64,000 bases of DNA, taken from contig CM018605.1 in assembly GCA_009192285.1 (NCBI GenBank), positions 1,574,530-1,638,529 on the forward strand. The letters are read 5' to 3'. Shown here piece after piece: positions 8,741 to 51,195 of the stretch. The notes beneath the pieces are model-generated. The model made no database searches. It saw only the letters and a list, made by a program, of their open reading frames with translations, and was not told where the DNA came from. How positions within the stretch are numbered: position 1 is the first letter of the stretch; each line of letters starts with the position of its first letter. Source of the DNA: Morchella semilibera. Lineage: Eukaryota; Ascomycota; Pezizomycetes; Pezizales; Morchellaceae. The position numbers and the translations under genes were made by a program.

Positions 8741-8750
8741 CTATATATAG
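8741..8750 (+). promoter_or_regulatory. TATA box of the P450 gene
   Basis: CTATATATAG lies about 140 bases before the chosen ATG, a plausible core promoter given a leader of about 100 nt. Confidence 0.4.
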
Positions 8751-8885
8751 AGACTATAACCTGAATCTGGACACAGATTTGGGCAACCAAATTGGTTTTC
8801 CATACTCTATTGCCCAGCAAGCACCGCGACACGAAGAACACCACAATCCAAGGTGCCATTACAGCTTCCCAGACCAATAATAACA

Positions 8886-16138: not shown

Positions 16139-16140
16139 TA

Positions 16141-24944: not shown

Positions 24945-25015
24945 TGTCTCAGGAGCCTCTTAGGAGACCTGGGACACTGCTGGGAGGCTCCAGTCACAAG
25001 TTGAGTTTGCTGATG
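24945..25015 (-). repeat. truncated, diverged copy of the 137-bp element
   Basis: Ends AGTTGAGTTTGCTGATG exactly as the full copies do and keeps the GGGAGGCTCCAGTCA block. About half of the element is missing. It is the only copy seen outside a retroelement. Confidence 0.6.
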
Positions 25016-27511: not shown

Positions 27512-29280
27512 CTAAGACAAAGTCGAACCCCAACCAACCTTCACAACAACCCCGCCTCGTTTAAGCCTCGGTCGCAAGGATGACCGACCTCAGCTGGGAC
27601 GTCCCCATGGAGGACCTCTCCCGACCCCTCGTCTACTCCCCCAGTCCCTTTGAATGCTACTTCCCTGAACGAAAGGGATTCAGTCACCTCGCTCTCGTCC
27701 CCCGCTCTCACTGGTTCGATCTCGGCTGCCGCTTAGGTTCGGACCCCCACGTCCACCTGCTCCGCGAGTACGCTCTTTCCCATGGTCTCAAGCGCGCCGA
27801 CGCCCACTGGGCCAAGGCCACCTTTATGCAAACTGCCCCGGGTAAGCTCCATATCGGAGCTCCCACCACCGACGACTCCTACCCTGCCCACGACTCTGAA
27901 GCTATCATTCGTGGCCTCAGGGACTCCGCCCTCGCTCAACACACCATCGGCCGCTCTCTGTAAGTCCCCGCTGCTTTCGATTCCTGCACTCTGACCAAGA
28001 AACTCGCTGGTTTCTTGGAAACCTTTGGGCCCATTGAGGAAGACTTCGGGTATGAGCTCACTGAAGCCCACAGCCTTATTGCAGAAGCCCTCGCCGCGCT
28101 CACCGCAATCGCCGACGTCCCCACCCTCGCAGAACCTGTTATATGCATGATCCACGATGAGGCTATTGAGAACCTCAACCTGGAACTCGAAGCCGCGGCA
28201 TCACATATCTCTGGTCCCGTTAAAAACCTCTCGTCTCCTGGAAGTAATCGATGGTCACCTGATTGAATCAGGCAAGATCACTCACATTGCCAAACTTTCG
28301 ATGGACATCAATGGACACCAGGAAATTGTTCCCTTCTTCGTCACCAAGCTGGGTCACTATCCACTGGTCATGGGAATTCCTTGGATATGACGCCACGACC
28401 TGGCTATCCGCCCTAAAACGAACAAGGTCATCTCCGACTCTGACTTCTGCACCCAGAACTGCTCTCTGTCTCACGCTCCGGTTACAGCCAAAGGCATCTC
28501 TGTCTCGTTTCCTGACGCACCAGCCATACAGATCTGCGCAATCGGAGCTGTACTATTTGTAGGTCTTGCGCGACGGAAGCAAAATCAATTGTTCTGTGCC
28601 TTTCTGAAGGCAATTGACGAAGCCCTAGCTGAGAAGACCAATACCGATTTATTGTCTCATGTACCCTAGGATTTTCGGGAATTTATGACGTTGTTCAAGG
28701 AATCAGATGCCGCCGCACTGCCGCCACACCGTCCATATGATTTGAAAATAGTCTTGCAGGATGGAAAGGCACCCCCGTTTGGTCCTCTCTACGGAATGTC
28801 TAGGGCGGAGTTACAGGCCCTTCGAGATTACATCACGGAGAACCTCTCAAAGGGGTTTATTCGTTATTCAGAATCCCTTGCTGGCGCTCCCGTACTCTTT
28901 GTCAGGAAATCCGATGGCTCTCTTCGACTATGCGTGGATTACAGGAAACTCAACGAGATTACGGTCAAGAATCACCATCCTCTACCCTTGATTCTCGAGA
29001 CACTGTCCCGCCTCTTCAAGGCCAAGTACTATACCAAGTTGGATCTTCTTGGGGATATCATCAAATTCGGATTCAGGAGGGCGACGAATGGAAGACTGCT
29101 TTCAGGACCCACTATGGTCATTTCGAATACAACGTCATGCCATTTGGACTGACCAATGCCCCCGCCACGTTTCAGCACTGGATTAACGACCTTCTGCGTC
29201 CCTTTCTCGATCACTTTGCTACGGCCTACCTCGACGACGTCCTGATATACTCAGAGTCCCTGGAAGAACATAAGCAGCAC

Positions 29281-29417
29281 CATCAGCAAGCTCAACTTGT
29301 TACTGGAGTCTCCCAACAGTCTCCCGGGTCTCCTGAGACTCTCCTGAGATCCCTGGACATTTTTTGAGTCTCCTGAGGCTCAGGAGACATCAGGAGACAA
29401 ATGAGGTCTTGCTGATG
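29281..29417 (-). mobile_element. 137-bp inverted-end element, copy 1
   Basis: Ends CATCAGCAA and TTGCTGATG, with target duplication AC. Inserted in the reverse transcriptase region of the family C fossil. Strand is set by the end that reads GACTTCATTTG inward. Confidence 0.85.
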
Positions 29418-29965
29418 ACGTCAAGGAAATTCTCAAAGTCTTCTAGATTCATGGTGTACATCTCAAGCCAGAGAAATGTGAGTTCTATTTGCAATGGACC
29501 AAGTACCTGGGACTTATTATTACTCTCGAGGGTATCAAGATGGACGACAGAAAGGTATCCACAATTAGGGACTGGGAAATGCCCACCAAGCTTCGGGAAG
29601 TTCAAGAATTTTTAGGCTTCACCAATTTCTATCGACGGTTTATTTATGCTTACTCCAGAGTTGTGGCACCGCTCACCGCCCTGACCAAGAAAAATGTAAA
29701 GTTTGAATGGTCTCAGAGGGCGGAAGATGCATTCCGGAAACTCAAAGATGCGTTTACTTCGGCTCCTATCTTGGCACACTTCGACTTTGAAAAAGAGGAC
29801 ATAGTGGAAACTGATGCCTCCGATTATGTCTCCGCAGGAATTATGTCTCAGTACGATGACAACGGAATTCTCCACCCAGTAGCGTTTTTCTCCAAAAAAC
29901 ACTCCCCGGCTGAATGTAACTATGAGATTTACGACAAGGAATTACTTGCAGTTATCAGGAGTTTT

Positions 29966-30597
29966 TGTGACGGAGTAACCCGACGCAAAGAAGAAGATGA
30001 CAATGATGACGCAGAAGAACCCGAGGAGCACAGTCTACTCAATGAGGAGACTGACGAAGACAGAGGCAACACTGGGCAGGCACAAGCACAGGCACCGGCG
30101 AAGGCAAGGGCAAGAGCAAGGGCAAAAGAGCACGGAGCAGGGAGGTGAGGACCGAATGGACCTCAACGAGAACGATGAGAGGTGCTATGAGTTTCCTCTC
30201 GTCAGAGGATCAAGTATTTGATACGAGAGGCTATGGCTTGGAAATAGGGGTGGATTCCTATGTACCGAAATAACAAGAAGACGAGACAGAGAGAAAAGAA
30301 AGAAAGAACTAAGGAAAACATCTATCTCGGCTATTTAACACACCTCCTCCACTAGTCCAATATGACTCACACTTCCGCTCATAGAACCTCATAGAAACCT
30401 GTTGCTACCACACCCCGTAATCCTCCCCACCATCTCCGCTATTTTACATTACCAATCCATCACGCCATTGAACCTCCCAGAACCTAATGACGACAGCCTC
30501 CACCTCACAATCCCCGTTCTCGCTTAACATTACCCTGACAACCACAACCGTACATCGCCTACCGAACTATCGGGACAAATGCCAAGACGCCGGGACA
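29966..30597 (-). repeat. alpha LTR, 3' LTR of element M
   Basis: 632 bp. On the minus strand it runs TGTCCCGG..CCGTCACA with a TTAAATAG box and CT-rich start. It is preceded by a GGAGGGGAG polypurine tract near 30605-30615. Its outer part holds a GCAAGG/GCACAG short tandem array. Confidence 0.8.
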
Positions 30598-30618
30598 GAT
30601 CAGCTCCCCTCCAAGGGC

Positions 30619-32499
30619 CTAGCTCCTGATAGGCCGAGGTTTCGAAGGATATTGGTCGTGGAATTCTTTTCTAATGTCAGGGCTATGTTCCAAATCACCC
30701 GAAGGTTGCCAGGACGGTTCCTCATATCCAGTATATCTAACCAAATACTCCACCCGTCGCCCCCTCTTCCGCGAATCCAATATCTCCGCTACTTCCCATT
30801 CACTCTCTCCTTCAACTTCCACCGGTGGGGGTGGTTCAACAATTTGTCCGGGAATAGGATTCCCAACTGTCGGCGATAATAATGAAACATGAAGTACTGG
30901 ATGCATTTTCATAGAGACAGGCAATTCCAACTCGTAGGCATAGGGGCTCACAATTCGTTTGACCGGGTAGGGACCAATTTGTTTCCAGTCAAGTCCCCTC
31001 GAGGGTCGTTTTGTTTCAATATTTTTAGTCGAAAGCCAGACGAAATCGCCGACCGCATATCGAGGTGCCGGGGTCCGGTGTAAGTTGGCCATCTCCTCCT
31101 GTATCTTCTGTACCCTGAACATCTCGCTTTTCAGAAAGTCAAACACTTGAGACATCTCTCGTGCCAACCCATTAGCCTGGTCCGCATCCACGGTCTGTCC
31201 GTGCTGTAAGGGTCCAAATGTCATTCTCGGATGTCTCCCATAGTTAGCCTGGAAGGGGGACATATTAGTAGTTTTGGAGATATGATTATTAGTAGCAAAT
31301 TCAGTCAGAGGTAAAAAATCCGCCCAGTTATCCTGTTGATATGATACATAACTGCGGAGGTACTGTTCCATAATCGCATTGGTCCTTTCTGTTTGTCCAT
31401 CGGTCTGAGGATGAAAGGCTGTGGAGTAACGAGGGGCAATTTCCAGCCGTTCGCAGAGAACTTTCCAAAATTCAGCAGTAAACTGTGTCCCTCGATCGGA
31501 AACAATAGTCTCTGGTAGCCCATGTAATTTCCATACCTGCTCCAGGTATAGACGAGACAGATCCCTGGCATTAACATTCTCCGTCGTGGGAATCAAATGC
31601 TTCATCTTTGTCAACCGATCCACCACTACTAGAATGGCATTAAATCCATGACTCTCCGGAAGTCCCGTTACAAAATCCATCGTGACATCCGTCCAGGGTC
31701 CTTTAGGCACCAATAATGGGCGCAGAACTCCTTGTAAGGGGTTATGGTTCGTCTTACTTCACCGGCAGGTATGGCAATTCTGGACATAGCGGTCTGTATA
31801 TTTCCGCATGGTCGGCCAATAGTATTCCCGGTTGAGAAGTTCCAAGGTCTTTGATCGTCCAGGATGTCCCGCAGAGGGTTTATCGTGGTATTCTTGTAAT
31901 AAATAGAGTTTAAGTTCGTCGTAATCAGGGACATAGAGTGTATTCCGATAAAGCAATAACCCCTCCTCGCTCTCCTTGCACTCAGCCAACAAAATCTCTT
32001 TTGATTGTCGAACGCCATCTCGGAGCATGGATAGGATTTTGTTTGGAAAGCTATCACTCTAGTAAGCTTTGTTAAACAAATCAAGTATGGGAGACGATCC
32101 TTCAGCGGGTTCATTTGCCAAAGAACCCACTAACAAACCTATTTTAAAATCCAAATTCTCCTTCTTCAAAATCACTCGGCTTTGTTGCTTCAATCTCTCA
32201 TCCCCCTCCTTCGGTAAATCCTTGGGTCCTCTAGTCAAAATATCAACCTTCCTTCCCTGCTTCCCCGGCCTATACTGAATAATAAAATTAAACCGAGATA
32301 GAAACTCTGCCCAACGAGTTTGACGTCTATTCAGCAATTTAGTCGACATAAAGTACTCAAGATTGCGATGATCTGTAAGTACTTTGACTTGAAATTGAGC
32401 TGTTTCCAAATGGGGTCTCCATTCCTCGAAGCAACGAATAATGGCCAACAACTCTTTGTCGTAAATCTCGTAGTTGCATTCTGCTGGCGAGTGTGTTTT
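30619..32499 (-). pseudogene. RNase H to integrase/chromodomain part of element M
   Basis: Fossil pol segment. In order it has the connection/RNase H tail, an HHCC zinc finger (HPGRSKTLELL..NCHTC), an integrase core ([26 protein letters not shown]) and a chromodomain (VEYLVRYTGYEEPSWQP). The chromodomain places it among chromoviruses. It is broken. Confidence 0.8.
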
Positions 32500-33205
32500 T
32501 GTGACGGAGTAACCCGACGCAAAGAAGAAGATGACAATGATGACGCAGAGAGACTCGAGGAGCACAGTGTACTCGACGAGGGGGCCGATGAAGACAGGGA
32601 CAACGCCGGGCAGGCACGAGCACAGGCACTGGCGAAGACAAAGGCAAGAGCAAGGGCACAGGAGCATAGAGCAGGGAAGGTGAGGACCAGATGGACCACA
32701 ACGAGAACGATGAGAGATACTATGAGTGTCCTCTTGTCAGAGGATCGAGTCTTCGGTACGAGAGGCTATGGCTTTAGAAATAGGAGTAGATTCCTATGTA
32801 CTGAGATAACAGGAAGACGAGACAGAGAGAAAAGAAAGAAAGAACTAAGAAAAAACATCTATCCCCGCTATTTAACACACCTCCTCCACTAGTCCACTAT
32901 GACTCACACGTTCGCTCATAGAACCTCATAGAAACCCGTCGCTACCCACACCTCGTAATCCTCCCCACCATCTCCGCTATTCTACATTACCAATTCATCA
33001 CGCCATCGAACCTCCTAGAACCTAATGACGACAGCCTCCACCTCATACTCTCCCCCCTCGCTTATCATTACCCTAATCGAACCTCCTAGAACCTAATGAC
33101 GACAGCCTCCACCTCATACTCTCCCCCTCGCTTAACATTACCCTAACAACCACAACCGTACATCTCCTACCGAACTGTCGGGACGACTGCCATGACGCCG
33201 GGACA
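32500..33205 (-). repeat. alpha LTR with internal 71-bp duplication
   Basis: The duplication spans about 33003-33146. GTTTT lies directly on both sides, like a solo insertion in RNase H. Confidence 0.75.
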
Positions 33206-34051
33206 GTTTTGGAGAAGAAGGCAACCGGGTGCAGTATTCCTTCATCATCTCGTTGTGATAGTATCCCTGCCGACACATAATCTGACGCGTCGGTTTCTAC
33301 AATAAATTCTTTTTCGGGATCAGGATGCATCAATATAGGAGCGGTGGTAAAAGCAATCTTGAGTTTCTGAAAAGCTTGTTCAACTTTTTGGGTCCACTCA
33401 AATCGTACATGCTTTTTTTGTCAGAGTAGTCAATGGCCGAGCCACTCGGGAATAAGCATAAATAAAACGTCGATAGAAATTGGCAAACCCAAGGAATTCC
33501 TGAACCTCCTTTACTGTCTTTGGCGCCTCCCAGTCCACAATTGTCTGTACCTTAGCAGGGTCCATCTTCATTCCTCCAGGGGTCAAAATCATGCCCAAAT
33601 ATTTTGTCTCTTGTACGCTGAATTCGCATTTCTCTGGTTTTAGATGGACCTCATTTGCTTCCAAGGCTTCCAGTACTTGTCCCACGTCCTGTTGATGTTG
33701 TTCTAAGGTCTCCGAATAAATGAGAATATCATCCAGATAAGCAGTCGCGCAACGATCCAGAAAGGGGCGAAGAATATCATTAATCCATCGTTGAAAGGTA
33801 GCAGGAGCATTGGTTAGACCAAAAGGCATCACCAAATATTCCCAATGTCCATAGCGTGTTCGAAAAGCCGTTTTCCACTCGTCTCCTTCTTTAATCCTAA
33901 TCTGATTATACCCCCATCGTAGATGCAGCTTGGTAAAATAATTAGCTCGGGCTAAATTAGCCATCGTTTCTGGTGTAAGGGGAAGAGGGTATCGATTCTT
34001 GACTGTAATAGCATTAGCTTTCGATAATCGACACACAAACGTAAGGAACCA

Positions 34052-34188
34052 CATCAGCAAGACTTCATTTGTCTCCTGATGTCTCCTGAGCCTCAGGAGA
34101 CTCAAAAGATTTCCAGGAGTCTCAGGAGACTCTCAGGAGACCTGGGAGACTGTTGGGAGACTGCAGTCATAAGTTGAGTTTGCTGATG
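34052..34188 (+). mobile_element. 137-bp inverted-end element, copy 2
   Basis: Target duplication CA. Inserted in the RT region of block N; the related element M (near 44770) has the empty site. Confidence 0.85.
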
Positions 34189-36024
34189 CATCAGCCTTTT
34201 TAACAAATAGCACCGGGGCGCCGGCTGGAGAATTGCTAGATTTAAGAAATCCTTTCTGCAAATTGTCGGCCAAATAATCCCTCAACGCCTTCAACTCTTC
34301 CCGTGACATACTATACATGGGACCAAAGGGGGGTACTGTTCCTTCCTGAAGTTTGATCTCATGGTCATAGGGACGATGTGGTGGTAGTCTAGAAGCATTG
34401 GTCTCATCGAACAGCTGTCGGAACCGCTGATAATCAATTGGAATCGTTCCATCAGGATTGGCAGGCATCTCCAATATTTTGTTGACAGCATAGAGGGTAG
34501 TCGAATAAATTTGCACCGTAGGGTCTTGCGAAAGTTTCTTAAACGATCGAGGAGTAATTGCCGAAATTTTTGTAACAGGCCTTTCGGGTGGTGAAGTTGA
34601 AATTCCTCGAGCAATAATAGGTTTGTGGTTGGCTATGCAATGTTCAAGACACACTGATGATTGGAAGCGAATCTCATTCCTTCCACTATCAATCAAAACT
34701 CCATGCTTCCTCAGCCAAGGAATTCCCATCACAATCGGGTAATGTCCCAGCTTTGTAACAAAGAAAGGACACTCCTCCACATGTCCATTAATTTCCAATT
34801 CCAACGTCACCTTCCTGGTCACCTTCCCGGACTCAATAGGCCTCCCATCAATCACATCAATCTCCCTCTCAGTCCATAAATTTTTCATTTTTAATTCATG
34901 GCGGCGCACAAAGTCTTCATCAATAAATGCATATCCCGACGCTCCAGTATCAATTAAAGTATAAGTGGGTACAATAGATTTTTTATTTTGTGAAATGGAA
35001 CACACTACAATCAGTTGATTCCTATCCATCTCCCCTTCTGATACTGAAAACGTTGAAATAGACACCTGAGAGAAAACCTTTGGAGGTCCCTGGGCTATGC
35101 CGCCTAGGCCAGGGACGAATCTTTTAACTCCTCCTCATCCGACACCACCTCCTCTTCCTTTTCCTTCTTTTCCTTTCTTGCTTCCAACAACGCTCCCCTC
35201 ATCCTGGGTGCCGCCCTTCCCGAGGGCGAAAGCTTACAATCTCTAACCAAATGTCCAACCCCCCCGCAGTAATAACAGCGATTCTCCACCCGACGTGCCT
35301 CCCTTTCTCTGGGGTCCGGGCGACGATAACTATTAGACAGGTCCATAGGAACAGCTCCCCCAGGAGTATAGGAAGGGTGGGCTGCTGGCGCAGCATTTTC
35401 GGTAATGGTTGGGGTGGTCCTCGTACGACTGGAGATGTTGCTGGTGCAACGGGGGGACGAGGAGCAAAGGGACGCGGAGCCGGGGCACTTGGAATCTGGA
35501 AATGAAATCTCCCCATCCTGGCCTGTAGCGCCCGTTGCTTATTATCAAGACGTTGAAGGAGCAGCCCGCAGTCCTTAATTGTGGTTGGTGTTTCATTTTG
35601 AATCATCAGGGCCATTAGGTCCTGGTTAAGTCCCTCCAACAAACATTCAATCTTGGCCGCCTCGTTGAACTCAGAGTCGGCAGTATATCGCTGGAACTCT
35701 GCAAAATACTCGGAAAAGGTGCGTTGGCGCTGCCTGATCTCCCTCAAATTACGAGTAGCAGTGGCGGCGCGGTCTGGGTCTCCAAAAGCATTATCCAAAA
35801 TCTCAAAGAACTCTGCCATAGAATCAAGAGCGATTCCTTCATCCGTAATATAAACTAAAAATTGATCCGCCGCCGGTCCCTCCAGTCGAGAAATAGAGTA
35901 TGCCAATTGTTGGGCCGAGGTAGGGAAACGATCGAAATTGGCTGTAAGCTTAATCTGTAGTTGCCTCTGAAAGGTCCTGAGAGTCTTGCGGTCGCCCCGG
36001 TATTTCTCTGGGTCAGGAAGCTTC

Positions 36025-36657
36025 TGTCCCGGCATCTTGGCATTTGTCCCGACAGTTCGGTAGGCGATGTACGGTTGTGGTTGTTAGAGAAATGTTAAGC
36101 GAGAGCGGTGAGTGCGAGGTGGAGGTTGTCGTCATTGGGTTCTGGGAGGTTCGATGGCGTGATGGATTGGTAATGTAGAATAGCGGAAATGGTGGGGAGG
36201 ATTACGGGGTGTGGTAGTACGGGTTTCTATGAGGTTCTATGAGCGGAAGTGTGAGTCATATTGGACTAGTGGAGGAGGTGTGTTAAATAGCCGAGATAGA
36301 TGTTTTCCTTAGTTCTTTCTTTCTTTTCTCTCTGTCTCGTCTTCCTGTTATCTCGGTACATAGGAATCTATTCCTATTTCTACAGCCATAGTCTCTCGTA
36401 CCAAAGACTCGATCCTCTGACAAGAGGAAACTCATAGTATCCCTCATCGCTCTCGTTGAGGTCCCTTCGGTCCTCACTCTCCCTGCTCTGTGCTCTTGTG
36501 CCCTTGCTCTTGCCTTTGTCTTCGCCGGTGCCTGTGCTTGTGCCTGCCCGGTGTTGTCCCTGTCTTCATCGGCCCCCTCGTCGAGTACACTGTGCTCCTC
36601 GAGTTCCTCTGCGTCATCATTGTCATCTTCTTCTTTGCGTCGGTTTACTCCGTCACA
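36025..36657 (+). repeat. solo alpha LTR in gag of block N
   Basis: TGTCCCGG..CGTCACA, 633 bp, opposite in orientation to its host, with target duplication GCTTC on both sides. The empty site is visible in element M near 46890. Confidence 0.85.
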
Positions 36658-37043
36658 GCTTCTCTGATTTAGACGGCTTAGTTAAGTCATCGTGGAGCTC
36701 CTCTAGACCTCCTTTGACTCCTTCTTGCAACTTCTTAAGCTTGGCCCGTAGTCCCTGGATTTCTTTATGGAACTCAGCCCAGCCTTGTTCGGTTTCGGAG
36801 TGATGGGTGGTAATATCGACCGCATATTGCTGGACCCCTCCGTGCGCTCTTTGGAGGAGGGCATACGCTTGCTTCGCTTCTTCCGTTGCGGCGGGGTCCA
36901 CTTCAGGGTGAGCGACAAAGAACCCTTCGAGATCCGTATGGAGCTTTTGATAATCAAATGCATTGGTAGCAGGGGCGGTCATGGTGAACTGTAATGCGAG
37001 GAACTTGGACTGTGCTAGTCGAGTGGGGATGGTCTCGTCTTAG

Positions 37044-37493
37044 TATCACGGAGCGAAGCAGAGTACAGGGCGAAGCGAGCCAAGGTACACTACCTAGGCG
37101 GGGCGTAACAGTAATGTTCGAGGCGGGCGAGGCAAGACTATGGAGCGAAGCGGGACGCGAGGTAGAACCAGAGACCTGAATATATTCCGAAGGACTACAA
37201 ACTCTTGAAGATAGGAAGGTTGCGTGAAGAGGAAAGGAAAAGAACTATCTATAAACGAAAACGAGACCCCTATATATACACCACATGCCGACACGATGAC
37301 TCATCCACGTAACCCTGTACAGAACCCCATAGAATCTCCCAAGACCCGTAACCCCGAACCCAACCTTATTTTCTAATCCCGAACCCCTATTTCCGAACCA
37401 AACCCCTGCTTCCGAATCCCAAAGAATCCTAGAAGAATCCCTGACTAATCCCTCTTCCCGCAACACCGCTAGACCATGTTCCTCGCCGTGATA
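37044..37493 (-). repeat. 3' LTR of B1
   Basis: TATCACGG..CCGTGATA, preceded on the minus strand by the AGAGGGGGA polypurine tract near 37503. Confidence 0.85.
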
Positions 37494-37520
37494 GATATTA
37501 GGTCCCCCTCTGAGGCCTAA

Positions 37521-40500
37521 GTCCTCTTAGGCTTGCGTGGATATCGTTCGTGAAAGTCTTTGACTAACTCAGGGGAGTTGTCCACATCGCCGTAGGGTTG
37601 CCATGATGGTTCGTCGTAACCCATCAGCAAACTCAACTTATAATTGCAGTCTCCCAACAGTCTCCCAAGTCTCCTGAGAGTCTCCTGAGACTCCTGGAGA
37701 TCTTTTGAGTCTCCTGAGGCTCAGGAGACATCAGGAGACAAATGAAGTCTTGCTGATGCCGGTGTATCGAACGAGGTACTCAAGTCTTCCACGTCGTCTC
37801 CGTGAGTCCAAATTAGCATCAACTTCCCACTCTTGTTCGCCTTCGATCTCGACGGGGGGTGGGGGTATTTGTAATTGACCTGGTACGGGGTTGTTGACAG
37901 CAGGCGAGAGTAACGAGACATGAAACACTGGGTGAACTTTCATCGACGAGGGCAGTGTAAGTTCGTAGGCATAGGGGCTGACGACGCGAGAGATCGGGTA
38001 GGGTCCGACTTGCTTCCAATCCAATTTCTTCGACGGTCTCTTTGTTAACAAATTGCGAGTAGACAGCCATACCTTATCCCCGATCATATATCGTGGTGCC
38101 GGAGTACGATTTGCATTGGCCGATTCTTCCTGTATCCGTTGAGCTCTAAACATCTCCGCCCGGAGGAAATCAAACACTTCTGATATATCTCTTGCCATGG
38201 TCTTAGCCTGGTCCTCGTTGGTAGTAGTACCATGTCGTAGAGGACCAAAGTTCATGCGAGGATGACGACCATAGTTGGCTTCGAAGGGCGAGAGTTTGGT
38301 TGACTCAGAGACGTGATTATTGGTCGCGAACTCCGCCATGGGTAGATAAGTAGCCCAGTTGTCCTGTTGATAGTCCACGTAGCTGCGGAGATATTGCTCC
38401 ATAATAGCATTAATTCTTTCAGTCTGACCATCTGTCTGAGGATGGAACGCAGTGGAATAACGAGAAGAGATCTCGAGGCGCTCGCATAGTGATTTCCAGA
38501 AATCTGAGGTAAATTGTGTGCCGCGATCTGAGACTATCCTTTCCGGTAGGCCATGTAGCTTCCAAACGTTCTCTAAATACATTCGGGCAACGTCCCGAGC
38601 TCCTGATTCTTCGGTACATGGAATAAAGTGTCTCATTTTGGTGAGCCTATCAACGACGACGAGAATGGCATTATAATTATTGCTGAGAGGTAGTCCTGTA
38701 ACGAAGTCCATTGAAACGTCCGTCCATGGTGCCTTAGGAACTGAGAGAGGGCGAAGAACTCCTTGAGGGGCGTTGCGATTTGCTTTGCTTCGGCGGCAGA
38801 TATGACAATTCATGACATAGCGGTCAGTATATTTCCGCATGTTCGGCCAGTAATATTCGCGACTGAGTAACTCTAGGGTCTTTGCTCTACCCGGGTGTCC
38901 TGCTGATGGTTTATCGTGATACTCCTGAAGAAGTCTAAGTTGTAACTCCTCGTATTCTGGTACGAAGAGTTTGCGTCGATAAAGAAGAAATCCGTCTTCG
39001 TTTTCCGCGCATTCGGCAAGTGAGATTTGTTTCGATTGTTTCGTGCCATCTTTTAGCATCGTGAGTACCTTGCTCGGAAAACTATCTTCTTGGTAAGCTT
39101 TCGTAAATAACTCCTGAACAGTGGACGCTCCTTCAGCGGGTTCATTTGCCAAAGAACCCGCCAACAAACTTAACTTATTATCCAAATTTTTTCTCTTCAG
39201 CACGGTCTGATACTGATACGCGAGGCGTTCATCCCCTCCTTAGGGAGATCCCCTGATCGCCTGGTGAGTGCATCCGGCTTTCCTCCTTGTTTTCCTGGAC
39301 GAAACTGAATAACAAAGTCGAAGCGTGATAAAAATTCTGACCAGCGGGTTTGTCGACGATTTAGTAGCTTGGTTGACATAAAGTATTCAAGATTCCTATG
39401 GTCTGTTAAGACTTTAATAGGATATGAGGCTGTTTCTAGAAAATAGGGCCATTCTTCAAATCCCCGAATAATTGCCAGTAGTTCTTTATCGTATATCTCA
39501 TAATTGCATTCCGCTGGTGTATGTTTCTTGGAGAAAAAGGCAATTGGGTGCAGAATTCCTTCGTTATCCCTCTGTGACATAATGGCGGCCGAGACGTAGT
39601 CGGAGGCGTCTGTTTCCACAATAATTTCCCGGTCGGGTCGAAATGTCTAAGAATGGGAGCGGTGGTAAATGCGAGCTTAAGATCCTGAAACGCTTTTTCC
39701 GTTTTGTCTGTCCATTTGAATACCACTCCTGTCTTTGTTAGAGCGGTCAGGGGAGATACTACCCTTGAGTACGCATAGATAAATCGTCGATAGAAGTTCG
39801 CGAAACCTAGGAATTCTTGCACATCTTTCAGGCAAGTGGGGGTTTCCCAATTCCTTATGGTAGCCACTTTGGACTCATCCATCTTAATCCCTTCGGGTGT
39901 AAGAACAAAGCCGAGATACATGGTTTCTTTGACGTGCCATTCGCATTTCTCTGGTTTAAGATAAACCTGATTTTTATCGAGTATCCGAAGTACCTTGTCG
40001 ACGTGTTCTTTGTGTTCTTCAAGGGTGGCCGAGTATATGAGTATGTCATCGAGATATGCGGTTGCAAAGTGATCAAGATAAGGGCGAAGCATATCGTTGA
40101 CCCAATGTTGGAATGCAGCGGGGGCGTTGGTTAACCCAAAGGGCATAACGGTGTATTCAAAATGTCCATACCGCGTCCTGAATGCTGTTTTCCACTCATC
40201 TCCTTCCCTGATTCTCAACTGATGATATCCATTACGGAGATCTAACTTGGTGAAATACATGGCGGAGGAAATACCCATAAACGTCTCTGGTGTTAGTGGA
40301 AGAGGATGTCGATTCTTCACCGTTACTGCGTTCAACTTTCTATAGTCAACGCAAAGTCGTAGGGAGCCATCAGCCTTTTTGACAAACAGTACCGGGGAGC
40401 CTGCGGGAGAGGTGCTATGTCGAATCCGTCCATTGGATAGATACTCTGCTAGATAGTCCCTGAGTACCTGGAGTTCCAGTCGGGTCATCCCGTACATGGG

Positions 40501-41220
40501 TCCGAACGGTACAGTTTTTCCTTCCTGTATATCAATAGAAAGGTCGTATTCGGTACGATGAGGAGGAAGTTTGGAGGCGTTCGGTTCACTGAGAAGATGT
40601 AGATATTGATGATGTTCGACGGGGACGAGTGCTCGGGGGTCCTTAGGCATTTGGGCCAGAAGATCGTCGAGGGCTTTGAGCGTGGTGGAGTAGAGTTTCA
40701 TTCCTTTTCTTTTCTTATTAATAAGTCTATGGAATGCATAGGAGGTAATAACGGAGATATTGGTTATTGGTTTAGCGGGAGGCTCGATAGAAATCCCTTT
40801 AGCAATAATCTTGGTGTGAGTAAGGGAACAATTCTTTATACAGCTTGAAGAGTTGAATTGTATTTCGTTATCGGCTGGTAGTATCGTTGTTGCATGCCTG
40901 CGCATCCAAGGAAGGCCCATAACTATAGGGTAATGACCTAGTTGAGTAACAAAGAAGGGAGCATCTTCTCTGTGGCCATTGATATCGAGACTGAGGATGA
41001 CCTTATGGGTGACCTTTCCTGATTCAATAGGTCTACCGTCTATTACGTCTATGTGTCGGGGGAGAATAAGAGGAATAGTTTTAAGTTTGTGATGGCATAC
41101 GAAATCCTTATCTATGAACGCGTATCCTGAGGCGCCAGTATCAATGAGAGCATATGATGGAATAAAAGAATCTTCATTTTGAGAAATTGAGCAAGTTACG
41201 ACTAATTGATTCCCATCCAT
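37521..41220 (-). pseudogene. pol of B1
   Basis: Fossil pol. Protease DTGASGYAF near 41130, RT with YLDDILIYS near 40050, RNase H, an integrase with SDRGTQFT near 38525, and a chromodomain just before the polypurine tract. All domains are present; about two breaks and one insertion. Confidence 0.85.
37622..37758 (-). mobile_element. 137-bp inverted-end element, copy 3
   Basis: Target duplication CC, in the chromodomain part of B1; B2 has the empty site near 57970. Confidence 0.85.
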
Positions 41221-41294
41221 ATCCTTCTCCGAAACCGAAAACCCAGAAACCGAGAGCTTAGAAAAATTTCTTAACCGTCCCTGGAGTGAGCCAC

Positions 41295-42710
41295 TCAGTC
41301 CAGGGAAAAATTTTTTAACACCTCATCGCCGGAGGCTTCTTCCTTCTCTTCTCCTCTAATATCTGCCCTAGCTCCCCTCATCCTGGGGGCTGGGTTCCTG
41401 GGAGCCGGCGCCTGTGGGCATTCCCTAACGAGGTGTCCTACACCTCCACAATAAAAACACCTATTCTCTACGCGGCGGGCCTCTCTTTCCTGAGGGTCTG
41501 GGCGGCCACGACCAGTTGACAAATCCATAGGAACTACTCCTCCTGGTGTGTGAGATGGATGAATAGCAGGGGGGTTGGGGCGAGTGGGAGCTTGATAGCG
41601 GGGAGCCGGAGGAGGCGGGGCTGAGTACCGAGGGGCGGGGCCAGCAGGAGCCTGATAGCGGGGTGCGGGACGAGCTTGGGGTGCGGGGGCCTGGTAGCGA
41701 GGGCGGTAGCGAGCAGTAATTATCTGCTGCTTGTTGTCCAAGCGTTGGAGGATGGTGGCGAGTTCGATAACGGTAGCGGGGGTCTCCTCGTGGACCATGA
41801 GCTTGGTGAGTTCCTCGCTTAGACCTTCCATGAGGGCTTCCACATTGGCGGTCTCTCCCATTCCAGCTTCGGCGGCGTAGCGTTGGAACTCGGCGAAGTA
41901 CTCCGAGAAGGGACGATTGAGTTGCCTAATTCTTCTGAGGGCGCGACGGGCAGTACCTACCTGGTCTGGGTCGCCGAATGCTGTATTTAAAATTTCAAAG
42001 AACCTCTCCATGGAGGAGAGGTTGATCCCGGTAGTGGTAATGTATGGCATGAATTGGTCGGCGGCAGGGCCTTCCAAGCGAGAGATGGCGTAGGTTAGTT
42101 GATTCTGAAGGGTGGGGTATCGGTCGGCATTGCCCAAGAGCTTGAGTTTCAACATGTTTTGGAACTGTGGAAGTCCCTTCCTGTTTCCTCGATATTTTTC
42201 TGGGTCCGGAAGCTTTTCTGACCTTTCAGGTCTTGGTTCTTGGGTAAGGGCAATGCCTTCTAAGAGGCGGTTGCGACGTCGAGAAGGGGGTGGCGGAATA
42301 GGGTCCGCTGCCGGGGGCGGAGGAGGAGGCGGGAGTGCGATCTGGGCGGCGAGTGCATCCTCGGCGGATTGCGTTGCTTGGTTTGCGATCTTTACTTGTT
42401 TTTGGAGGGTGGTGACCTGAGCTTCAAGAACTGTTATCTGTCCCTCTAGCTCTTGATTCTCCCTTCCCAACTTTGTAAGTTTCTTGGTCCATTCTTTTCG
42501 AGCTTCATCCCCATCCTCTATTTCTTCCTGCCAATTAATAATAAGTTGCTTGACGGCTTGTTGAGCGCGGAACATTAGGTCATGAATTTTCTTGGCCTCC
42601 TCACTGGCATCGTCTGCAACGGTAGGGTGTGCGGCTACGAATGTATCAAGATCCCTTTGAAGGATCTCGTAGAGTCCTTCTGACTCTTCCATAGGGTCTG
42701 CGTGCGACAT
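41295..42710 (-). CDS. gag of B1, 471 aa
   Basis: Open from MSHADPMEESEGLYEILQRD to the stop. It has an N-terminal coiled-coil region, a proline run (about residues 126-145), the capsid-like core, Pro/Ala-rich repeats (RYQAPAPQARPAPRYQAP), and a zinc knuckle CFYCGGVGHLVREC near the C-terminus. It packages element RNA in its family. It belongs to the retroelement, not the host. Confidence 0.85.
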   Translation of the reverse strand: MSHADPMEESEGLYEILQRDLDTFVAAHPTVADDASEEAKKIHDLMFRAQQAVKQLIINWQEEIEDGDEARKEWTKKLTKLGRENQELEGQITVLEAQVTTLQKQVKIANQATQSAEDALAAQIALPPPPPPPAADPIPPPPSRRRNRLLEGIALTQEPRPERSEKLPDPEKYRGNRKGLPQFQNMLKLKLLGNADRYPTLQNQLTYAISRLEGPAADQFMPYITTTGINLSSMERFFEILNTAFGDPDQVGTARRALRRIRQLNRPFSEYFAEFQRYAAEAGMGETANVEALMEGLSEELTKLMVHEETPATVIELATILQRLDNKQQIITARYRPRYQAPAPQARPAPRYQAPAGPAPRYSAPPPPAPRYQAPTRPNPPAIHPSHTPGGVVPMDLSTGRGRPDPQEREARRVENRCFYCGGVGHLVRECPQAPAPRNPAPRMRGARADIRGEEKEEASGDEVLKNFSLD

Positions 42711-42774
42711 GATAGGTGATAAGATATTGTATCAATGTATGTAGTGTAGGTTGGCGTTGGAGACGCAACCTTAG

Positions 42775-43224
42775 TATCACGGAGCGAAGCGGAGTACAGG
42801 GCGAAGCGAGCCAAGGTACACTACCTAGGCGGGGCGTAACAGTAATGTTCGAGGCGGGCGAGGCAAGACTATGGAGCGAAGCGGGACGCGAGGTAGAACC
42901 AGAGACCTGAATATATTCCGAAGGACTACAAACTCCTGAAGATAGGAAGGTTGCGTGAAGAGGAAAGGAAAAGAACTATCTACAAGCGAAAACGAGACCC
43001 CTATATATACACCACATGCCGACACGATGACTCATCCACGTAACCCTGTACAGAACCCCATAGAATCTCCCAAGACCCGTAACCCCGAACCCAATCTTAT
43101 CTCCTAATCCCGAACCCCTATTTCCGAACCAAACCCCTGCTTCCGAAACCCAAAGAATCCTAGAAGAATCCCTGACTAATCCCTCTTCCCGCAACACCGC
43201 TAGACCATGTTCCTCGCCGTGATA
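42775..43224 (-). repeat. 5' LTR of B1
   Basis: 450 bp. The leader next to it (42763-42774) is complementary over 10 nt to ACGCAACCTT inside the LTR, just after its CT-rich start. Confidence 0.85.
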
Positions 43225-43229
43225 CTAAG

Positions 43230-43934
43230 TGTGACGGAGTAACCCGACGCAAAGAAGAAGATGACAATGATGACGCAGAGAGACTCGAGGAGCACAGTGT
43301 ACTCGACGAGGGGGCCGATGAAGACAGGGACAACGCCGGGCAGGCACGAGCACAGGCACTGGCGAAGACAAAGGCAAGAGCAAGGGCACAGGAGCACAGA
43401 GCAGGGAAGGTGAGGACCAGATGGACCACAACGAGAACGATGAGAGATACTATGAGTGTCCTCTCGTCAGAGGATCGAGTCTTCGGTACGAGAGGCTATG
43501 GCTTTAGAAATAGGAGTAGATTCCTATGTACCGAGATAACAGGAAGACGAGACAGAGAGAAAAGAAAGAAAGAACTAAGGAAAACATCTATCCCCGCTAT
43601 TTAACACACCTCCTTCACTGATCCGCTATGACTCACACTTTCGCTCATAGAACCCCATAGAAACCCGTCGCTACCACACCTCGTAATCCTCCCCACCATC
43701 TCCGCTATTCTACATTACCAATTCATCACGCCATCGAACCTCCTAGAACCTAATGACGACAGCCTCCACCTCATACTCTCCCCCCTCGCTTATCATTACC
43801 CTAATCGAACCTCCTAGAACCTAATGACGACAGCCTCCACCTCATACTCTCCCCCCTCGCTTAACATTACCCTAACAACCACAACCGTACATCTCCTACC
43901 GAACTGTCGGGACGACTGCCATGACGCCGGGACA
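43230..43934 (-). repeat. alpha LTR at the N/M junction
   Basis: Near-identical to the LTR at 32500-33205, including the internal duplication. Its left neighbour is leader DNA and its right neighbour the RNase H of element M, flanked by GTTTT. Confidence 0.75.
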
Positions 43935-44970
43935 GTTTTGGAGAAGAAGGCAACCGGGTGCAGTATTCCTTCATCATCTCGTTGTGATAGTATCCCTGCC
44001 GACACATAATCTGACGCGTCGGTTTCTACAATAAATTCTTTTTCGGGATCAGGATGCATCAATATAGGAGCGGTGGTAAAAGCAGTCTTGAGTTTCTGAA
44101 AAGCTTGTTCAACTTTTTGGGTCCACTCAAATCGTACATGCTTTTTTGTCAGAGTAGTCAATGGCCGAGCCACTCGGGAATAAGCATAGATGAAACGTCG
44201 ATGGAAATTGGCAAACCCAAGGAATTCCTGAACTTCCTTCACTGTCTTCGGCACTTCCCAATCCACAATCGTCCGTACCTTAGCAGGATCCATCTTCATT
44301 CCTCCGGGAGTTAGAATCATGCCTAAATATTTTGTTTCCTGCACACTAAATTCATACTTCTCGGGCTTCAAGTGAACCTCATTAGCCTCTAGGGCTTCAA
44401 GTACTTGCTGCACATCCTGTTGATGTTGCTCCAGGGTTTCCGAATAAATAAGAATATCATCAAGATACGCAGTAGCACAACGGTCCAAAAAAGGCCGGAG
44501 AATATCGTTAATCCAGCGTTGAAAGGTAGCAGGGGCGTTGGTTAGACCAAAAGGCATCACCAGATATTCCCAGTGTCCATAGCGAGTTCTAAAAGCCGTC
44601 TTCCACTCATCCCCCTCCTTGATCCTAATCTGATTATAGCCCCAACATAAATCCAAATTGGTAAAATAATTCGCCCGTGCTAAGTTGGCCATAGTTTCTG
44701 GTGTAAGGGGAAGAGGATATCGATCCTTAACCGTGATGGCATTTAGCTTCCGATAGTCAACGCATAAGTGTAAGGAACCATCAGCTTTCTTAACGAATAG
44801 CACTGGGGCGCCAGCTGGGGAGTTGCTAGACCTAAGAAATCCTTTCTTCAAATTATCGGCCAGATAGTCCCTCAACGCCTTCAACTCTTCCCGTGACATG
44901 CTATATATGGGACCAAAGGGAGGTGCTGTTCCCTCTTGCAATTTTATCTCATGATCATAGGAACGATGTG

Positions 44971-45107
44971 CATCAGCAAGACTTCATTTGTCTCCTGATG
45001 TCTCCTGAGCCTCATGAGACTCAAAAAATATCAAGGGGTCACAGGAGACTCTCAGGAGACTCAGGAGACTGTTGGGAGACTCCAGTCAGAAGTTGAGTTT
45101 GCTGATG
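44971..45107 (+). mobile_element. 137-bp inverted-end element, copy 4
   Basis: Target duplication TG; empty site in block N near 34378. Confidence 0.85.
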
Positions 45108-46299
45108 TGGTGGTAGCCTGGATGCATTGGTTTCATCAAATAACTGCCGAAAACGTTGATAATCTATTGGAATCTTTCCATCAGGGTTGGCAGGCATTTC
45201 CAATATTTTGTTAACGGCATATAGTGTAGTTGAACAAACTTGAACGGCAGGATCCTGAGCCAACTTCTTAAACGATTGAGGGGTAACCGCTGAAATATGT
45301 GTAACTGGCCTTTCTGGTGGTGGCGTTGAAATTCCCCGAGCAACAATAGGTTTACGGTTGGCTATGCAATGTTCAAGGCATACTGATGACTGGAAGCGAA
45401 TCTCATTCCTTCCACTATCAATCAAAACCCCATGTCTTCTCATCCAAGGTATTCCCATCACTATCGGGTAGTGTCCTAGTTTCGTAACAAAGAAAGGACA
45501 TTCCTCCACATGTCCATTAATCTCCAACTCCAACGTCACCTTCTTGATTACTTTTCCTGATTCAATAGGTCTTCCATCAATCACATCAATCTCCCTCTCA
45601 GTCCTCAAATTCTTCATTTTCAATTCATGGCGGCGCACAAAGTCTTCATCAATGAATGCATATCCCGACGCTCCAGTATCAATCAAGGCATAGGTGGGTA
45701 CAATAGATTTTTTATTTTGCCAAATAGAACAAACCACAATCAATTGATTCCCATCCATCTCCCCTTCTGATACTGAAAACGTAGAAATAGACACCTTAGA
45801 AAAATCTTTAGGAGGTCCCTGGGCTATGCCGCTTAGGCCAGGGACGAATCTTTTAACTCCTCCTCATCTGACAATAAATCCTCCTCCTTTTCCTTCTTTT
45901 CCTTCTTCGCTTCCAGCAAAGCTCCCCTCATTCTAGGTACTGCCCTTCCCGAAGGCGAAAGCTTGCAGTCTCTAACCAAATGTCCAACCCCTCCACAATA
46001 ATAACAACGATTCTCCACGCGACGTGCCTCCCTTTCTCTGAGATCCGGGCGACGATAACTATTAGACAAGTCCATGGGAACAGCTCCCCCAGGAGTATAG
46101 GAAGGGTGGGCCGCTGGCGCAGTATTCTTCGGTGGTGGTTGGGGTGGTCCTCGTACGACTGAGGATGTTGCTGGTGCAACAGGGGGACGAGGAGCAAAGG
46201 GACGCGGAGCAGGAGCACTTGGAATCTGAAAACGAAATCTCCCCATCCTGGCCTGTAGCGCCCGTTGCTTATTATCAAGACGTTGAAGGAGCAGCCCGC

Positions 46300-46436
46300 C
46301 ATCAGCAAGACTTCATTTGTCTCCTGATGTCTCCTGAGCCTCAGGAGACTCAAAAGATCTCCAGGAATCTCAGGAGACTCTCAGGAGACTTTGGAGACTG
46401 TTGGGAGACTGCAGTCATAAGTTGAGTTTGCTGATG
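46300..46436 (+). mobile_element. 137-bp inverted-end element, copy 5
   Basis: Target duplication GC; empty site in block N near 35572. Confidence 0.85.
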
Positions 46437-47274
46437 GCAGTCCTTAATCGTGGTTGGTGTTTCATTCTGAATCATCAGGGCCATTAGGTCCTGGTTAAGT
46501 CCCTCCAACAAACATTCAATCTTAGCCGCCTCGTTGAACTCAGAGTCGGCAGCATATCGCTGAAACTCTGCAAAGTACTCAGAAAAAGTGCGTTGGCGCT
46601 GCCTGATCTCCCTCAAATTACGAGCAGCAGTGGCGGCGCGGTCTGAATCCCCAAAAGCATTATCCAAAATCTCAAAAAACTCCGCCATGGAATCAAGAAC
46701 GATTCCTTCATCCGTAATATAAACTAAAAATTGATCCGCCGCCGGTCCCTCCAGTCGAGAAATGGAATATGCCAATTTTTGGGCCGAGGTAGGAAAACGA
46801 TCGAAATTGGCTGTGAGCTTAATCTGTAGTTGCCTCTGAAAGGTCCTGAGAGTCTTGCGATCACCCCGGTATTTCTCCGGGTCAGGAAGCTTCTCAGATT
46901 TAGATGACTTGGTTAAGTCGTCGTGGAGCTCCTCTAAACCTCCTTTGACTCCTTCTTGCAACTTTTTGATCTTAGCCCGTAGTCCCTGGATTTCTTTATG
47001 GAACTCGGCCCGGCCTTGTTCTGTTTCGGAGTAATAGGTGGTGATGTCGACCGCATATTGCTGGACTCCTCCGTGCGCTCTTTGAAGAAGGGCATACGCT
47101 TGCTTCGCTTCTTCCGTTGCGGCGGGGTCCACTTCAGGGTGAGCGACAAAGAACCCTTCGAGATCCGTATGGAGCTTTTGATAATCAAATGCATTGGTAG
47201 CTGGAGAGGTCATGGTGGACTATGGTGCGAGGAACTCGGACTGTGCCAGTCGAGTGAGAACGGTCTCGTCTTAG

Positions 47275-47907
47275 TGTGACGGAGTAACCCGACGCAAAGA
47301 AGAAGATGACAATAATGACGCAGAAGAACCCGAGGAGCACAGTCTACTCAACGAGGAGACTGACGAAGACAGAGGCAACACTGGGCAGGCACAAGCACAG
47401 GCACCGGCGAAGGCAAGGGCAAGAGCAAGGGCACAAGAGCACGGAGCAGGGAGGGTGAGGACCGAATGGACCTCAACGAGAACGATGAGAGGTGCTATGA
47501 GTTTCCTCTCGTCAGAGGATCAAGTATTTGATACGAGAGGCTATGGCTTGGAAATAGGGGTAGATTCCTATGTACTGAAATAACAAGAAGACGAGACAGA
47601 GAGAAAAGAAAGAAAGAACTAAGGAAAACATCTATCCTCGCTATTTAACATACCTCCTCCACTAGTCCGCTATGACTCACACTTTTGCTCATAGAACCTC
47701 ATAGAAACCCGTTGCTACCACACCCCGTAATCCTCCCCACCATCTCCGCTATTTTACATTACCAATCCATCACGCCATCGAACCTCCCAGAACCTAATGA
47801 CGACAGCCTCCACCTCACAATCCCCGCTCTCACTTAACATTACCCTGACAACCACAACCGTACATCGCCTACCGAACTATCGGGACAAATGCCAAGACGC
47901 GGGGACA
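47275..47907 (-). repeat. alpha LTR, 5' LTR of element M
   Basis: 633 bp. AAGACGAGAC on the plus strand (47588-47597) means the transcript start region reads GTCTCGTCTT, complementary to the leader at 47263-47274. Confidence 0.85.
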
Positions 47908-48806
47908 TCAATGGGACCCGCAAGGAGCTACCCGGGTTCCTCAATCTCCTCCGTACCAAACTCAGGGTTAACCATGATAGGTTCCTGAACGAAGAGGCTA
48001 TGGTCTTTTATGCAGTAAGTCAGTTGGAAGGGAAGGCTTTAGATCAAGTCATCCCAATGGCCACCGGAGATGCCGCCCCGTTTGTTTCTGTCGCTACCTT
48101 TGTTGCATTTTTGGAAGCATCTTTCGGAGACCCAGACCCTAGAGGCACAGCCCAAAGGGAGCTCCAAGGCCTCCGCCAAGGCAAAGGAGACTTCGCGACC
48201 TACCTTACCCAATTCTTACGTATTATGGGCCAACTCAATTACAATGAGGAAGCCAAGAAGGACGCCCTAGAGACTGGGCTATCCGACGACCTTAAAGACG
48301 CCATGATCTATCAAGACACTACTGAGGAAGGCTTTGATGCCTATGTTAGAAGACTTATGACTATGGACAACAGGATTAGGGCTAGGAAGGATGCCCACAA
48401 AATCAATAGGAACCCGATAGGACAATTTACCCCCCAACCCGCTTCTCCACACCCGTCGCATACGCCAGGAGGCCTGGCCCCTATGGATCTTTCTGCCCTT
48501 CAGGCTCGTCCTACTATACGTCCCCCACCAGAGGGAAGATATACTTTTGCTAATGGCCGCCGGCATACTACCGCCGCTGAAAAGAAATGGAGAATGGAGA
48601 ATGGCCGCTGCGCCTATTGTGCCGCCGCCGACCATGTCTTCGCCAACTGCCCTCAAGGCAATCGCCCGCGTGCCCCCCCTCTGGTTATGAGAGGTGCCAT
48701 CCTATCTGCTCCCCCCGCTGCCCCCATTGAGACTCTCGTCCCTATTTCTTCTTCTTCTTCGTCTACGGATATTGCGTTGTCTTCCGGTAATTCGGGTTTT
48801 CAGTAG
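47908..48806 (+). pseudogene. gag of the E element, 5'-truncated
   Basis: Fossil capsid-like gag (TRKELPGFLNLLRTKLRVNH) with an atypical zinc knuckle CAYCAAADHVFANC near 48609 and a Ser-rich tail. Confidence 0.7.
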
Positions 48807-49139
48807 TACCTGGTCAGTATCATAGCCCTCGCCAGGGACCTTCAAAGGAATTTTCTTTATCTGCGTTTTCTATTTCTGGGTTTTCAGTTTCGGTTATGGC
48901 AGAGGAGGAATTAAATGGAGATCACTTAGTTGTAGCCTGTGATATTGCTCACAATAAGAACTCCATTTCCACCTACGCTATGATTGATACTGGGGCCTCG
49001 GGATTCGCATTTATTGATGAGACCCTTGCGCGCCATCACCAACTTCCTCTTTTCCCCCTTAAAATACCTCGTACTCTTGAGGTGATTGATGGGAGACCTA
49101 TAGCATCTGGACAAATTACCTCAATATGCCGTGTACCTC

Positions 49140-49276
49140 CATCAGCAAGACCTCATTTGTCTCCTGATGTCTCCTGAGTCTCAGGAGACTCAAAAAATGT
49201 CCAGGAATCTCAGGAGAGTCTCAGGAGACCTGGGAGACTGTTGGGAGACTCCAGTCACAAGTTGAGCTTGCTGATG
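49140..49276 (+). mobile_element. 137-bp inverted-end element, copy 6
   Basis: Target duplication TC, in the protease region of the E element. Confidence 0.85.
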
Positions 49277-49821
49277 TCTACTTATCGGCTCTCATCAAGA
49301 ACAAATTCCACTTTTCGTCACCAAGTTGGGACAGTACCCCCTAGTTCTTGGCATCCCTTAGCTGCAACATCACGATGCCACTCTTAAATTTAAGAGCAAT
49401 ACGGTGGCCTTTGACTCGGAGTTCTGTAAAAAGAACTGTAATTCTATGACTACCCCTGATGTTATTCTCGGTATTAAACCCCCAACCTATATGATAGGCC
49501 CAGTTCCCTTTAGCCGCCTCGCCCGTCGCAAACAACTACAAATTTGCAGCATAACATTGTATGAGATTGAGAAGACCCTTCAGGACGCTCCAAAGGATGG
49601 GTGGAAACAAAGGATCCCCAAACGCTATCATAACCGATTGAATATGTTCGATGAAGCCTTTGCCCAGGACCTACCGCCTCGACGCCCCTACGACCATAAG
49701 ATACCCCTGAAGGAAGGAAAGGAGCCTCCATTTGGTCCCCTCTATGGCATGTCTAGGGACGAGTTGCTCGCATTAAGGGATTATATTCGGGAGAATCTTT
49801 CTAAGGGGTTTATCCGCGCTA

Positions 49822-49958
49822 CATCAGCAAACTCAACTTATGACTGCAGTCTCCCAACAGTCTCCCAAGTCTCCTGAGAGTCTCCTGAGATTCCTGGAGA
49901 TCTTTTGAGTCTCCTGAGGCTCAGGAGACATCAGGAGACAAATGAATTCTTGCTGATG
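49822..49958 (-). mobile_element. 137-bp inverted-end element, copy 7
   Basis: Target duplication TA, in the RT region of the E element, opposite in orientation to copy 6. Confidence 0.85.
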
Positions 49959-51195
49959 TAGTTCATCCCCGGCTGGGGCCCAGGTATTATTTGTTAAAAA
50001 GGCTGATGGGTCACTTCGTCTCTGCGTAGATTACCGAGGGTTAAATGAGCTGACGGTTAAGAATCGATACCCATTACCCTTAATTCAGGAAACTTTGGAC
50101 CGTCTTTCTAAAACCAAGTGGTATACTAAGCTGGATTTACAACAGGGGTACAATCAAATCCGAATGGCCGAAGGGGAAGAGTGGAAGACGGCGTTTAGGA
50201 CCCGCTACGGTCACTTCGAATACACCGTGATGCCATTCGGTCTTACCAATGCTCCCGCTACCTTCCAACATTTCATCAACGACTGCCTCCGAGAACACTT
50301 AGATCAATTCTGCACTGCATATTTGGATGATATCCTTATATATAGTGACTCCCTCGAGGAACATGAACGACACGTCGAAATTATATTGGGGGTACTACAG
50401 GAGAATAGAATTCTGCTGAAACCAGAGAAATGCGAATTTCATACCCAGAGTACTACCTATCTTGGACTGATTATTGAACCCAATGGTATCCATATGGACC
50501 CTCATAAGGTATCGGCAGTACAAGAATGGACTACTCCTAAGTCGGTTAAAGACGTACAAGCCTTTCTGGGTTTCGCTAATTTCTATCACCGCTTTATTTT
50601 TGCATTCTCGAAGCTTGCAGCCCCCTTGACAAAACTTACAAAGAAGAATGTTCCTTTCTTCTGGACCCCGGAAGCAGAAATAGCATTTCAATCCTTGAAA
50701 GAAGCCTTCACCACCGCCCCCATTTTGATTCATTTCGATCCTGAAAAGCCAATTACAGTGGAAACAGATGCGTCGGACTATGTTGCCGGTGGTATACTTT
50801 CCCAATATGATGAACAAGGGAAATTACACCCTGTGGCGTTCTTCTCTAAGAAACATACGCCTGCGGAATGTAACTACGAAATTTATGACAAAGAGTTACT
50901 GGCAATAATTAGATGTTTCGAGGAATGGAGGCCGGAGTTGGAAGGAGCTAAACACCCTATTGAGGTTATTTCCGACCACAAAAATCTTGAATATTTTATG
51001 TCTACCAAGCAACTCAATAGGAGACAAGTACGATGGGCTAAATATTTATCGCGATTTGATTTTATTATTAAATATAGACCGGGAAGGCAGAGTGGGAAGC
51101 CGGATGCGTTGACTAGGTGTCCCGGCGTCTTGGCATCTGTCCCGACAGTCCGGTAGGTGATGTATGGTTATGATTGTTGTGGTAATGTTAAGCGA

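Follow-up and report, generated by a model that had tools for sequence, protein, structure and literature searches.

The window analyzed here is a stretch of 64,000 nucleotides from the morel Morchella semilibera (contig CM018605.1, positions 1,574,530 to 1,638,529). It contains a block rich in retroelements of Ty3/gypsy type, with matches to gag, protease, reverse transcriptase (RT), RNase H, integrase, and chromodomain, and all seven intact copies of a 137-bp inverted-end element sit within this block. We conclude that the element is very probably a miniature inverted-repeat transposable element (MITE) of the Plavaka type, that is, a non-coding, non-autonomous cut-and-paste element moved in trans by a Plavaka transposase. 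The copies in the window, with their flanking duplications and the empty sites that were found, are as follows.

29281..29417, minus strand: intact 137-bp copy; duplication AC at 29279-29280 and 29418-29419
34052..34188, plus strand: intact 137-bp copy; duplication CA at 34050-34051 and 34189-34190; empty sites 44680-44880 and 62057-62252
37622..37758, minus strand: intact 137-bp copy; duplication CC at 37620-37621 and 37759-37760; empty site 57871-58065
44971..45107, plus strand: intact 137-bp copy; duplication TG at 44969-44970 and 45108-45109; empty sites 61867-62066 and 34281-34480
46300..46436, plus strand: intact 137-bp copy; duplication GC at 46298-46299 and 46437-46438; empty site 35470-35669
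49140..49276, plus strand: intact 137-bp copy, between gag-like and RT-like open frames; duplication TC at 49138-49139 and 49277-49278
49822..49958, minus strand: intact 137-bp copy; duplication TA at 49820-49821 and 49959-49960
24946..25015, plus strand: broken half copy that keeps the TTGCTGATG end only; outside the retroelement block

The intact copies in the window are closely related and uniform. Each begins with CATCAGCAA, ends with TTGCTGATG, and is exactly 137 bp long. A first-pass annotation, made from the letters alone, had reported these lengths, ends, and start positions, the seven different flanking dinucleotides, and the occurrence of both orientations, and all of this was confirmed. 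Copies 34052, 44971, 46300, and 49140 have one orientation; 29281, 37622, and 49822 have the other. It had also placed its seven copies inside retroelements, which is right for them; the broken half copy, an eighth, lies outside the block. The window contains 15 occurrences of the end 9-mer, where 0.49 would be expected, and pairwise identity among the seven copies is 89.8-98.5%. The interior consists of about seven GTCTCC-type units (a count by eye). Three copies were folded and gave hairpins with z of -4.4 to -6.0; such a fold follows from the inversion of the two halves and does not require a function.

Empty sites demonstrate that the copies were not inherited as part of their hosts. We give practically no chance to the reading that the 137-bp unit is a piece of gypsy retroelements, copied along with them and not itself mobile, although the gypsy-rich block does hold all seven intact copies. 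Each of these lies at a different place, and an ungapped empty site is present in sister gypsy elements of the window for four of them (34052, 37622, 44971, and 46300), which bears out the earlier report of empty sites for several copies and refutes the reading. Across the joints, 40-49 of 50 bases are identical and the dinucleotide is present once. The search in the window returned weak relatives only (67-73% identity) for the copies at 29281 and 49822, and no relative spanning the joint for the copy at 49140. Furthermore, no two of 35 distinct sites in the fetched DNA (both ends exact, 60-base flanks compared) share flanks at more than 60% identity. Copies also occur where the sample shows no repeat, such as three in locus L007 with none detected nearby (repeats being judged within the fetched sample), and within an older copy of the element itself.

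The target duplications are 2 bp long and of no fixed sequence. Equal 2-bp flanks were found at 34 of the 35 distinct sites and equal 3-bp flanks at none; the latter test asks whether the three bases to the left of the element equal the three to its right, and it excludes a 3-bp duplication and nothing further. In the orientation of the element, the duplicated dinucleotides are TA (7), AA (7), TG (5), CA (4), CT (3), TT (3), and five others once each, and the pooled empty sites lean weakly to C-TA-G. With TA at 7 of 34 and duplications of free sequence, Tc1/mariner is ruled out, as the first-pass annotation had argued. One 137-bp copy is nested, with an AA duplication, in an older copy that is about 85% consensus-like (L004, 7712-8012). 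This indicates more than one period of transposition in the family.

The element is abundant throughout the assembly. A genome-wide search, which had been proposed for the element earlier, covered 56,756,124 bases on 23 contigs and returned 592 exact-end copies (pattern CATCAGCAA-N(109-121)-TTGCTGATG, 127-139 bp), against 0 for a reversed-pattern control. The distinct exact-end copies listed number 69 and are all from contig C1; 67 of them have a length of 137 bp, and the other two are 136 and 138. The constant length claimed from the window thus extends to intact copies; it does not extend to every copy-like stretch. Of the 52 such stretches seen across the window and 21 further loci, 32 are exactly 137 bp; the others include shorter, broken, slightly longer, and nested ones as well as some truncated by the locus end. 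Thirty-two distinct 137-bp copies each show 2-9 differences from their majority sequence. The first-pass annotation considered a constant length unusual for a MITE, whereas it is ordinary for the intact copies of a MITE family. Like MITEs in general, the element is short, has no room for a coding sequence, forms a hairpin, and combines inverted terminal repeats and a target duplication (with empty sites) with many copies of uniform intact length. Unlike them, it is filled with its GTCTCC-type units and is strongly clustered in the genome.

The ends and the duplications are those of a described transposon group. PlavakaB families, which belong to the CMCT clade of DNA transposons and were described from Agaricomycotina, have termini 5'-CATCA..TGATG-3' and duplications of 2 or 3 bp, according to PMC12730594. 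The 137-bp element has the same CATCA..TGATG termini, with 2-bp duplications, and the statement that no named family has such ends had to be given up. It differs from PlavakaB in its length of 137 bp, in being non-coding, and in its host, a morel (Ascomycota, Pezizomycetes).

Plavaka transposases are numerous in this genome, and many of them have a CATCAGCAA end on their 3' side. The Plavaka profile PF18759 has at least 128 matches here, the best with E 1.2e-77, and none in 14 control genomes; several of the matches lie in open frames of 993-1028 codons. In locus L006, a Plavaka match occupies 8696-9151, and TG|CATCAGCAAGCTTGGGGT is found 2 kb to its 3' side. Allowing up to two mismatches, the 18-mer CATCAGCAAGCTTGGGGT occurs 41 times in the genome, while its control occurs 0 times. 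At 29 of these places, the seven exact ones among them, the distance to the 3' side of a Plavaka match is 1.4-3.1 kb, although five pairs of the 29 are on paired contigs (C9/C10, C12/C13 twice, and C21/C22 twice), which leaves about 24 that are independent. No place lies in any other arrangement within 4 kb of a match, where about 0.3% would be expected per arrangement at random, and 12 of the 41 have no Plavaka match nearby. From this arrangement, we take CATCAGCAA, as a CATCAGCAAGCTTG-type end, to be the probable 3' terminus of this Plavaka group.

The likeness between the MITE and the Plavaka ends continues beyond the terminal bases on the left side. Seven CATCAGCAAGCTTG ends were read, six of which match the left end of the MITE at 20-22 of 27 bases and the seventh at 18 of 27. 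The six also carry TTGTCTC at the same distance as the MITE left end does. When bases 10-27 were shuffled, such likeness was reached in 0.005-0.4% of trials for the six ends, two of which (L045 and L046) share a flank and are not independent, and in 4.2% for the seventh.

The CTCCTGAGCC-like unit that fills the MITE is also present inside the end of one Plavaka group. This second group comprises five matches of equal score (3.0e-54), each with one in-frame TAG. In the copy at C7:827157, TA|CATCAGCAAGATTC, which is read as TA|CATCAGCAAGATTCAAACTCTCTCC, lies about 2 kb downstream of the Plavaka match. This end, too, reads CATCAGCAA, and after it comes a CTCC(T/C)GAGCC-like array in which a CTCCTGAG-like unit is found at 10 places within 360 bp. 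With up to two mismatches allowed, 801 bases contain CTCCTGAGCCT 8 times, where 0.60 would be expected. The MITE aligns with the first 360 bases of this end over 51 columns with a score of 40; the best score among 366 control windows from 14 loci was 32, and 300 shuffles reached 28 at most. The CTCCTGAGCCT count and the alignment score thus place the MITE unit within a Plavaka end. One control window with 10 units (the C7 end has 11, both strands counted) follows another CATCAGCAA end, in locus L013 (C14:500000-509999). At 4851-5400 of that locus, the end is followed by an array of CTCCTGAG, CTCCGGAG, and CTCCTGAT, with no PF18759 match at the place; this is perhaps a decayed or non-coding larger relative.

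Several observations weigh against the assignment to Plavaka. A longer, transposase-encoding element with the same 9-bp ends, which the first-pass annotation had suggested seeking, was not found in pattern searches. No founder with the MITE end and another interior appeared in six pattern searches of the genome, which gave 1, 1, 0, 16, 2, and 30 places; by eye, these are mostly MITE variants of substitution or indel type. The few diverging places, which are chance-like or unread, were C15:379969, C16:473344, C19:4611755, and C23:1565778 in the 16-place search and C1:1191578 and C20:4562381 in the 30-place search. The right end of the MITE is unlike the CATCAGCAAGCTTG ends beyond its first 9 or 10 bases. 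The 5' end was found in neither of the two Plavaka elements followed, nor was any autonomous element read end to end, and a second CATCAGCAA end and a 2-bp duplication of an autonomous copy are therefore predictions. In the C7 group, the in-frame TAG of the Plavaka match is either an intron or a defect. Within the Plavaka group, the element appears closest to PlavakaB, a placement made by its ends. Lastly, one array motif from an EnSpm locus, CATCAGTAA in L039, is one base off the end of the MITE.

This last point favors a MITE of the EnSpm/CACTA lineage, a reading that we consider very improbable. There are 25 Transposase_21 matches in the genome, and EnSpm is related to Plavaka within the CMCT clade, for which duplications of 2 to 5 bp are given in PMC12730594. 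The EnSpm elements of this genome, like the MITE, also have one-sided arrays of short repeated motifs, and the three EnSpm loci that were read carry dense arrays, each of a different motif.

L037, 777-1290: array of TTAAACAGT
L038, 1333-1860: array of GTGGTTTAA
L039, 6880-7530: array of CATCAGTAA

These motifs differ from that of the MITE, however, and none of the three loci (of 25) contains a GTCTCC array. None of the three has a CATCAGCAA end; their sole exact CATCAGCAA (L039, 5321) falls within the transposase frame. In the same source, fungal EnSpm families have ends CAC..GTG and 3-bp duplications, whereas the MITE has CATCA ends and duplications of 2 bp, and the CATCAGCAA ends of this genome adjoin Plavaka matches rather than EnSpm. 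The first EnSpm locus had seemed promising for its palindromic array; its CACTATGGTACATAC start was found once per element, in four elements, and is therefore not an inverted end.

An origin from the PIF/Harbinger-ISL2EU group, in which 2-bp duplications are known for some members, is very improbable. The genome has 35 DDE_Tnp_4 matches, and relatives are reported to have 0-, 2-, or 3-bp duplications. Against this, neither the 12 of these 35 loci that were read, at about 3.5 kb per locus and about 1.5 kb per side, nor the three EnSpm loci have an exact CATCAGCAA/TTGCTGATG pair around the transposase gene. In one Harbinger locus (L026), a pair with one mismatch per end (1027 and 2711) does surround the gene, which we take to be chance.

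We therefore retain the Plavaka-type MITE as the best explanation and suggest how it might move. A Plavaka transposase supplied by autonomous copies would bind the 9-bp ends together with the repeated GTCTCCTGA-type units, excise the 137-bp unit, and join it to cuts staggered by 2 bp, the repair of which would leave the 2-bp duplication. Copies would then accumulate in certain blocks mainly because insertions are harmless there, and the transposase might add to the pile-up by favoring chromatin of this kind. A more far-reaching proposal combines several statements: that the element arose by the joining of two Plavaka ends and subterminal transposase-binding units rather than by deletion from any one Plavaka element, that it is nearly all binding site, that as a compact best substrate it outcompeted its autonomous partners, and that the transposase steers it into transposon-rich chromatin. 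Taken jointly, we regard these as a doubtful, if conceivable, extension.

The 137-bp copies are strongly clustered; they lie in repeats often but not in every case. Over the initial 2.9 Mb of C1, which hold 69 exact-end copies, 15 of the 29 bins of 100 kb are empty, whereas random placement of 69 copies leaves 2.6 empty bins on average and 8 at most (10,000 trials). Flanks are more than half repetitive for 36 of the 52 copy-like stretches, compared with 5.3% repetitive bases in 12 comparison loci; because seven loci were picked for copy density, this measure gives enrichment and not its size, the comparison loci are arbitrary rather than random places, and repeats outside the fetched sample are missed. 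A preference for transposon DNA, as proposed in the first-pass annotation, is thus seen and is not exclusive: in L016, which alone among the arbitrary loci holds copies, all four stretches fall short of the half-repetitive mark. Selection against insertions near genes explains the clustering as well as targeting does.

The element looks like a new named MITE family as far as the literature search reaches, and not like a new kind of mobile element. No description of a Plavaka MITE was found in the open literature searched, with subscription journals and Repbase outside the search. The family gives Plavaka an assayable, high-copy substrate of 137 bp with known ends, a known duplication length, and candidate transposases, and it places CATCAGCAA-ended Plavaka elements in a morel. 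The genome paper on Morchella crassipes M10M26 gives 15.34% repeats, with unclassified repeats at 9.90% of the genome (PMC7014384); the MITE family probably accounts for part of the latter.

The Plavaka loci show some further features. The ends in L045 (C3) and L046 (C11) have an identical 12-base flank, which may reflect the duplication of a larger stretch. On C21/C22, C12/C13, and C9/C10, transposase matches or ends lie at near-equal positions, as if these were two versions of one chromosome stretch. GGAGRCT repeats precede the Plavaka transposase match in L049. Ahead of the Plavaka domain of L042, the reading frame contains a stretch, identified by eye, that we take to be C2H2 zinc-finger-like.

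Elsewhere in the window, a 389-codon open frame at 16137-17303 encodes a Tc1/mariner-like transposase (HTH_Tnp_Tc3_2 and DDE_3), and a beta-glucosidase shares 91% identity with one that bears the name of Morchella conica.

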